Positions 51,892-52,067 of a DNA stretch of 64,000 nucleotides are shown one piece after another. The position numbers and the translations under genes were made by a program. Every line of letters begins with the position of its first letter. The stretch's first letter is position 1. The stretch is from Streptomyces sp. NBC_00654 (GTDB lineage Bacteria; Actinomycetota; Actinomycetes; Streptomycetales; Streptomycetaceae): contig NZ_JAPEOB010000001.1 in the NCBI RefSeq assembly GCF_026341775.1, forward strand, positions 1,240,001 to 1,304,000, in the 5' to 3' direction. The notes under the pieces were generated by a model. It did not search any database and was not told the origin of the DNA. It saw only the letters and a program-made list of their open reading frames with translations.

Positions 51892-51924
51892 GGGGTGACT
51901 CCTGGTGGGGTGGGGCCCCCGGAG

Positions 51925-51984
51925 CGACAGGCCCGCAACGCAGAGCGCCCCGGGCCTGTCGGCCCGGGGCGCCTGGAACGTTGC
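51925..51984 (-). promoter_or_regulatory. Mutually exclusive hairpins upstream of chorismate mutase (candidate attenuator)
   Basis: In the minus-strand transcript, GCGCCCCGGGCC - GACA - GGCCCGGGGCGC (51972-51945) makes a 12-bp hairpin, strengthened by flanking GCAACG/CGTTGC. Its downstream arm plus loop (CGACAGGCCCG, 51961-51951) can instead pair perfectly with CGGGCCTGTCG (51935-51925), an 11-bp stem just before the gene. A leader-coding segment GGCCCG (52027-52022) can pair with the upstream arm. This is the 1:2 / 2:3 / 3:4 layout of amino-acid attenuators. GC-rich pairings arise by chance in this genome, so the call is provisional. Confidence 0.55.
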
Positions 51985-51995
51985 TTGTCAGTGGC

Positions 51996-52067
51996 TCAAG
52001 CAGCACGACCATGGCAGCCGGCGGGCCGGATGCCATAGGTAAAGACGAAGGTCGTGTGCTGACGCAT
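51996..52067 (-). CDS. Candidate aromatic leader peptide, 23 residues
   Basis: The ORF is MRQHTTFVFTY at its start and ends ...GCHGRAA. Three aromatic codons (Phe7, Phe9, Tyr11) sit in five positions, upstream of the pairing hairpins and chorismate mutase. This would let a ribosome stalled by low charged tRNA-Phe or tRNA-Tyr influence folding. No ribosome site lies before the ATG; CATACT six bases upstream could be a -10 element giving a leaderless transcript. Reality of the peptide depends on conservation. Confidence 0.5.
   Translation of the reverse strand: MRQHTTFVFTYGIRPAGCHGRAA

Follow-up and report, generated by a model that had tools for sequence, protein, structure and literature searches.

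Does the leader that precedes chorismate mutase in Streptomyces sp. NBC_00654 measure the supply of phenylalanine and tyrosine, and if so, by what kind of device? Gene and leader lie on the minus strand of the 64,000-nucleotide stretch analysed here (positions 1,240,001 to 1,304,000 of contig NZ_JAPEOB010000001.1; the window). A sequence-only reading had proposed an aromatic attenuator, with a 23-codon open reading frame (ORF) containing Phe-Val-Phe-Thr-Tyr and four segments able to pair as 1:2, 2:3 and 3:4, all of which are present in the window sequence. This proposal proved largely right and is supported by the frame, the aromatic codons and the compensated stem arms. The leader combines an ORF in conserved frame, control codons for the end products and mutually exclusive pairings, and all our comparative tests of sequence and pairing mark it as a deeply conserved attenuator. 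We consider it very probable that it works as a ribosome-mediated transcription attenuator, through which expression of chorismate mutase would depend on charged tRNA-Phe and probably on charged tRNA-Tyr too.

The downstream gene had been named correctly as chorismate mutase, as Pfam, NCBIfam and its structural relatives agree. Its product scored 28.9 bits against CM_2 (PF01817; cut-off 27), 118.1 bits against NF005894 (cut-off 73) and 49.3 bits against TIGR01808, slightly under the cut-off of 52.15, and a profile of 11 relatives matched the structures of M. tuberculosis intracellular chorismate mutase in PDB (E = 5.6e-23). CM_2 is the sole domain of the 101-residue product, with no fused prephenate dehydratase as in E. 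coli pheA.

Layout of the leader

The elements to which we refer below are, in the direction of transcription:

52098..52103, minus strand: possible -35 element TTGGTG, weak, 18-nt spacer
52074..52079, minus strand: -10 element CATACT, ending 6 nt 5' of the leader ATG
51996..52067, minus strand: leader peptide ORF, MRQHTTFVFTYGIRPAGCHGRAA and a stop codon, 23 codons, ATG at 52067 (sequence and conservation of frame)
52050..52062, minus strand: 5' arm of stem P1, in which the 5' end of the ORF pairs with its 3' end (fold and covariation)
52035..52049, minus strand: control codons TTC-GTC-TTT-ACC-TAT, Phe7-Val-Phe9-Thr-Tyr11 (conserved codons)
52011..52036, minus strand: hairpin P0, AUGGCA-CCGG / CCGG-UGCCAU, shielding segment 1 (fold and covariation)
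52012..52029, minus strand: segment 1, the loop and 3' arm of P0, containing GGCCCG (re-pairing test)
51996..52010, minus strand: 3' arm of stem P1 (fold and covariation)
51961..51973, minus strand: segment 2, the 5' arm of hairpin T (motif and pairing)
51944..51973, minus strand: hairpin T (2:3), 12 G-C pairs and one G-U pair, loop GACA, putative terminator
51945..51961, minus strand: segment 3, CGACAGGCCCGGGGCGC, the loop and 3' arm of T (limits of the sequence-only reading)
51925..51935, minus strand: segment 4, CGGGCCTGTCG, partner of segment 3 in 3:4 (re-pairing test)
51899..51903, minus strand: AGGAG, ribosome binding site of chorismate mutase
51586..51891, minus strand: chorismate mutase gene, small intracellular type, ATG at 51891, 101 codons and stop

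The core of P0 starts at the Gly codon directly after Tyr, GGCCCG of segment 1 lies at 52027-52022 (minus strand), and segment 2 had earlier been given as GCGCCCCGGGCC (51972-51961, minus strand). Hairpin T follows the stop codon of the leader ORF after 22 nt, and 21 nt separate segment 4 from AGGAG. In the naming used for trp attenuators P0 is 1:2, the pairing called 1:2 here is 2:3 and T is 3:4, which leaves segment 4 as an extra partner that holds the 3' arm of the terminator. The leader RNA of the window (188 nt) folds with -100.8 kcal/mol (z = -4.7), a value equalled by none of 200 shuffles.

The leader ORF is conserved in frame and in its aromatic codons

Eighty loci were fetched through the related chorismate mutase protein, and together with the copy of the window all 81 carried TTTA[CT]CTATGGC 5' of the chorismate mutase gene. 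A stricter search for F-x-F matched 77 of the 81, the remaining four having Tyr (three) or Ser (one) for the first Phe. In a second set of loci (L081-L140) the script found the leader in 57 of 60 and L140 was added by motif; no leader was seen in L139, nor in L090, whose contig starts 86 nt before the match. We then asked for the reading frame with the start codon defined from the promoter hexamer rather than from the motif: 136 loci had the motif, 135 of them the hexamer, and in 135/135 the start codon was in frame with TTT-NNC-TAT, at a distance from ATG to TTT of 18, 21, 24, 27 or 33 nt, the allowed hexamers having been derived from those already observed in these leaders. The leader codons thus neither vary freely nor shift frame, and the aromatic codons are kept across families; ORF, frame and aromatic codons are established by this comparison.

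In 89 distinct Streptomycetales ORFs the region around the motif held 89 TTT, 75 TTC, 87 TAT and 3 TAC codons, counts which rest partly on loci found via the TTT..TAT motif, the first 81 having been fetched by protein. In five ORFs of the window TTT accounts for 0 of 65 Phe codons and TAT for 2 of 58 Tyr codons. Within Streptomyces the nucleotide sequence of the leader is very strongly conserved, silent positions included, and most of the first 81 leaders retain the C-terminal CHGRAA. L138 shows a silent change to TTC..TAC and L140 has Phe in place of Tyr, and by these two sequences the leader codons are selected at the level of the amino acid. In a number of leaders (L125, L127, L136 and several of L111-L140, e.g. 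L111, L115-L117, L119 and L120) Trp stands beside Phe, in motifs such as QWFTYG, VWFSYG and FWFTYG, which would suit a leader that senses all three aromatic amino acids.

All 60 of 60 distinct leaders found by motif alone had a [TC]ANNNT hexamer that ends 6 or 7 nt 5' of the start codon, whereas the background gave 8 in 1320 positions; once the promoter-assisted finds were added the count was 130/130. The position of the hexamer predicts a leaderless transcript, which would start at or beside the ATG. A -35 element (TTG/TGA at 16-19 nt spacing) was found in 62 of the 130 leaders, so the evidence for it is weak.

The pairings of the leader RNA co-vary

For 32 hand-picked lineages the duplex energy of each segment with its own partner was compared with that of 5000 reassorted partners, the segments being cut as the ORF after the Tyr codon, the arms of T (by rule; three loci by hand) and the 45 nt after T. 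L197 and L205, in which T was probably assigned wrongly, add noise to the test. The z values were -11.1 for 2:3, -3.9 for 1:2 and -4.0 for 3:4, and 0/5000 reassortments were as good in each case. The control pairings gave z values of +0.5 for 1:3 (3446/5000 as good), -1.6 for 2:4 (317/5000) and -2.1 for 1:4 (96/5000), and the reversed-partner controls lay between -1.1 and +0.5. For 2:3, 1:2 and 3:4 respectively, z was -7.8, -3.9 and -3.2 in a sparser set of 21 lineages, and -7.9, -2.6 and -2.9 in a set of 17 from other genera. By this comparison the three pairings of the sequence-only reading all co-vary between lineages, and for 1:3, 2:4 and 1:4 covariation is not clear. Single cases illustrate it: GGUCCGG with CCGGACC in L137 for 1:2, and CAUCCG with CGGAUG in L150 and GCUUCCG with CGGAAGC in L151 for 3:4.

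The device also has two parts beyond the four segments that had been proposed, namely hairpin P0 and stem P1, which covariation likewise establishes. P0 gave z = -8.2 in the 32 lineages, with a mildly negative reversed-partner control (-2.4), and P1 z = -8.1 in 73 Streptomycetales ORFs, again with a mildly negative control (-3.1); a further stem, P2, reached z = -3.8, a value measured without the reversed-partner control. The covariation of P0 and P1 would explain why Gly after Tyr and CHGRAA are kept. In an alignment of T (20 sequences) 99.3% of the cells were paired and 8 of 16 pairs had changed on both sides, and in one of P0 (14 sequences) the figures were 90.9% and 5 of 9 pairs; both alignments lean towards pairing because the sequences were picked from hairpins found by script. 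Taken with the re-pairing test, these per-pair counts show arms which change with compensation.

Hairpin 2:3 as the putative terminator, and the proposed switch

Of 179 leaders, 139 had a perfect T stem with 10 or more pairs, and in the 89 non-redundant ones used the 12 nt at or after the end of the 3' arm of T held a mean of 4.7 T, against 1.0 expected from the downstream composition. Clear T runs 3' of 2:3 are seen in L129, L132, L135, L149 and L198. Because, over the lineages, the T-rich tail follows 2:3 we infer that this hairpin is the terminator, and that 1:2 together with 3:4 forms the antiterminated, open state. The sequence-only reading had placed the last stem, 3:4, about 20 bp before the ribosome site; that position holds, at 21 nt, but its role as the decisive stem does not, and 3:4 as terminator was rejected on account of the T-rich stretch coming after 2:3.

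We would therefore picture the switch as follows. The leader ORF would be translated from the extreme 5' end of the transcript. When Phe and Tyr are abundant the ribosome would pass, P0 would hold segment 1, segment 2 would pair with 3, and RNA polymerase would stop at the T-rich tail of hairpin T. When charged tRNA is scarce the ribosome would stall on TTC, TTT or TAT and cover the 5' arm of P0; segment 1, thus released, would pair with 2, and segment 3 then with 4. The pairing 3:4 would compete with T and leave segment 2 free for 1:2, and with the terminator blocked chorismate mutase would be made.

Folding models speak to this switch in part. In the window, the minimum-energy fold contains T with a ribosome at the stop codon or with no ribosome, and swaps T for 1:2 and 3:4 when a ribosome mask is placed on Phe9. 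The fold and truncated-transcript models covered 29 lineages, L197, L201 and L205 of the 32 being left out. For a transcript cut before segment 3 the expected number of 1:2 pairs was 13.4 with a stall at Phe, 10.7 at Tyr, 10.1 at the stop codon and 6.5 with no ribosome, which fits a kinetic switch read mainly via Phe, against a high background.

The leader is widespread in the order and beyond

Of 293 genomes of the order searched with R1, a covariance model of the leader RNA built from 33 sequences, 278 gave a match at E <= 1e-3, weak (1e-4 to 1e-6) in six cases, and chorismate mutase was found in 286 of the 293. A leader match without a chorismate mutase match occurred in two genomes, G284 and G256, the latter because the contig stops 53 nt past the model match. 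Ten genomes had chorismate mutase without an R1 match, namely G091, truncated by its contig, and nine from other families within the order; the leader was present in the four of these nine that were inspected (G002, G007, G009 and G015).

Outside the order, a search at the level of the phylum gave an aromatic leader in 5 of 7 class members, a count that leaves out the weaker relatives L156-L170. A search at the level of the class fetched 57 further loci, of which L212 and L234 were too short, with genomes G674, G774 and G781 left out. The 55 scanned comprised 53 from other families, three of which are the second copy in their genome, and 2 from the genus, both second copies. A predicted leaderless short ORF with Phe-(x)-Tyr was found in 36 of the 53 loci, and over the 55 loci the same rule found none on the reverse strands and 4 in 1100 dinucleotide shuffles; L232 fails the promoter rule yet shows Phe-Tyr by eye. 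Typical peptides of these families are VLSKQRFFYGYRSAVPVV, VFDQRFFYYGTGSPAAVGRA and MSTQRFYGHRIPVPARV, which differ from the Streptomyces peptide, retain F-(x)-Y and do not keep the CHGRAA end. Family f5 looks mycobacterial: the chorismate mutase of L150 lies above the cut-off of TIGR01808 (high-GC type) and, by eye, the divergent gene at L150 is a UvrD/PcrA-like helicase.

Paralogous leaders in the window's own genome were considered and rejected, the eight other R1 matches being partial (17-38 model positions, mostly the terminator part). Across eight Streptomyces genomes the best R1 match per genome was strong (E <= 2.3e-31) and the others stood at 1.3e-7 or weaker. Second chorismate-mutase-like genes in two genomes (L248 in G031, L249 in G042) have no leader.

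Weighing the attenuator against other explanations

Several observations weigh against the attenuator as we describe it. The window's own tail after T, TCTGCGTTGC, is T-poor, and a simple promoter and terminator scan found nothing. The equilibrium fold loses T in just 4 of 29 lineages with a stall at Phe and in 2 of 29 with a stall at Tyr, and one of the four, L151, is without T even when no ribosome is placed. Elsewhere, then, the switch must be kinetic, and equilibrium folding is no general argument for it. In the truncated transcripts a shuffled segment 2 with a stall at Phe still gives 9.6 expected 1:2 pairs against 13.4, and a stall at Tyr is barely above a ribosome at the stop codon (10.7 against 10.1). 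L154 has the 3:4 arm of L151, the outer part without a matching partner. The 41 ORFs of other families hold 42 TTT, 19 TTC, 22 TAT and 22 TAC codons, so the preference for TAT is not general. Finally, the scan found no leader in L152 and L153, two of the seven class members from the phylum search, nor, by the scan rule, in 17 of the 53 loci of other families.

If the sensor is accepted, its output could still be translational, with the stalled ribosome altering access to the ribosome site of chorismate mutase. The sequence 3' of segment 4 does complement this site in some relatives, e.g. GGGGCTCC...GGAGCCCC in L041 and L011 (by eye), and the T tail is weak in the window. But across lineages the 12 nt after T are enriched in T (4.7 against 1.0), the five loci named above have clear runs there, and in the window, with 52 nt from T to the start codon, no long complement of the ribosome site is seen; we hold a translational output to be unlikely. 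Another view makes the ORF incidental and has a structured RNA directly detect a metabolite or a protein. The strong nucleotide conservation in Streptomyces, silent positions included, would suit such an RNA, but the frame is kept in 135/135 loci, the aromatic residues persist while the surrounding sequence changes, as the silent change of L138 and the change from Tyr to Phe in L140 show, and no Rfam family matches above threshold, which together make direct sensing very improbable.

There is hardly any probability left for the 23-residue peptide being a functional small protein. Its C-terminal CHGRAA, kept in most of the first 81 leaders, is what speaks for such a role, but the same stretch serves as the 3' arm of P1 and as part of P0, where it co-varies with its partner, and leaders of other families do not retain it. 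Ribosome-mediated transcription attenuation is the explanation that we prefer.

Neighbourhood and other loci

The divergent neighbour of the leader and chorismate mutase unit is guaA. 3' of chorismate mutase, at 51380-51560 of the window, lies an intergenic block which by eye recurs in two families of the order, and a similar block (GGTCCCACGACG ... GGTCACGCGCCGTACGGGTGA in relatives of the window) is seen in L082, L114, L115, L120, L122, L131 and L132. It has no Rfam match and could be an unrecognised structured element. Rfam covariance models gave no match above the gathering score anywhere in the window, the two sub-threshold matches having E values of 0.2 and 0.4.

Elsewhere in the genome, Phe/Tyr leaders before the class II 3-deoxy-D-arabino-heptulosonate 7-phosphate (DAHP) synthase or the prephenate dehydratase gene were looked for and none was found within 500 nt upstream. 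Upstream of the class II DAHP synthase (L250) the opposite strand carries, by eye, a trpE-type leader, MFAQQTRISIQNWWWTAHPAAR, with a terminator-like repeat and divergent from DAHP synthase. A second class II DAHP synthase-like stretch lies at C1:3787553-3788674, in three matching pieces, one with a stop codon.

Comparison with known systems

The nearest known systems are pheL-pheA of E. coli and aroR of Corynebacterium glutamicum, and by analogy the leader would work like E. coli pheL and trpL and like aroR. Neshat and colleagues reportedly described aroR in 2014 as leaderless. The sequence-only reading cited no attenuator for a chorismate mutase gene, but pheL-pheA is one: its leader peptide controls the chorismate mutase gene and responds to Phe-charged tRNA, as summarised in the review PMC11802643. 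Our leader resembles it in that a leader peptide precedes a gene bearing chorismate mutase. It is unlike it in that the chorismate mutase is separate and small, whereas that of E. coli is fused to prephenate dehydratase, and in that the ORF, predicted to be leaderless, contains Tyr codons as well. In C. glutamicum, a Phe-Tyr-Phe leader (aroR) precedes aroF, transcription rises under Phe limitation and, according to the same review, Tyr availability is without effect on the aroF operon (PMC11802643). Like the present leader, aroR is actinobacterial and carries Phe and Tyr codons, but it stands before a DAHP synthase gene and the present leader before chorismate mutase.

Among the attenuators described for Streptomyces, trpL1, ilvL, leuL1 and others of S. 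lividans combine hairpins with a short ORF that bears control codons and is leaderless in several cases, and precede biosynthetic or tRNA-ligase genes; Table 4 of that reannotation has eight leaders, none for Phe or Tyr (PMC8079986). The leader described here shares their short ORF, control codons and hairpins, but they sense other amino acids. For ilvB of C. glutamicum and M. tuberculosis, ribosome stalling is described as selecting terminator or antiterminator (PMC11857589, PMC13236596), with a third, anti-antiterminator hairpin in C. glutamicum (PMC11857589); unlike these attenuators, which serve branched-chain amino acids and another gene, ours is a Phe/Tyr leader of chorismate mutase. Four papers on mycobacterial leaders or small ORFs (PMC13236596, PMC4633059, PMC4128351, PMC9094748) use neither 'chorismate' nor 'phenylalanine' in their main texts, and the main text of the S. 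clavuligerus Term-seq study is without chorismate, its 96 novel premature transcripts being in a supplement outside our scope. The PepX peptide of S. venezuelae is unrelated to the leader. In the literature searched, supplements being outside its scope, we recognised no published description of a Phe/Tyr leader before chorismate mutase. The kind of attenuator is thus already known, and the chorismate mutase leader is a new and unusually widespread member of it.

Significance

A comparative survey of 2005 stated that upstream of Phe or Tyr operons in actinobacteria it saw no conserved RNA regulatory structure (PMC1262725), a statement which is revised by the leader's presence in nearly all Streptomyces genomes examined and in several other families. 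The leader would be a direct control point for aromatic supply in antibiotic producers, and it suggests how actinobacteria with a small stand-alone chorismate mutase may match this enzyme to demand.

As a tentative proposal, to which we give somewhat less than even weight, the leader could be an ancestral, class-wide Phe/Tyr attenuator kept with intracellular chorismate mutase, in mycobacteria-like families too, with dual control of flow and sensitive TTT/TAT sensors. The small chorismate mutase of M. tuberculosis complexes with DAHP synthase, each altering the activity of the other, so one leader may govern both branch and pathway flow. If this is true, a single leader may set the Phe/Tyr branch and also the flow into the whole aromatic pathway, and the TTT and TAT codons of Streptomycetales, rare in the window's other genes, would have been kept as especially sensitive sensors of hunger.
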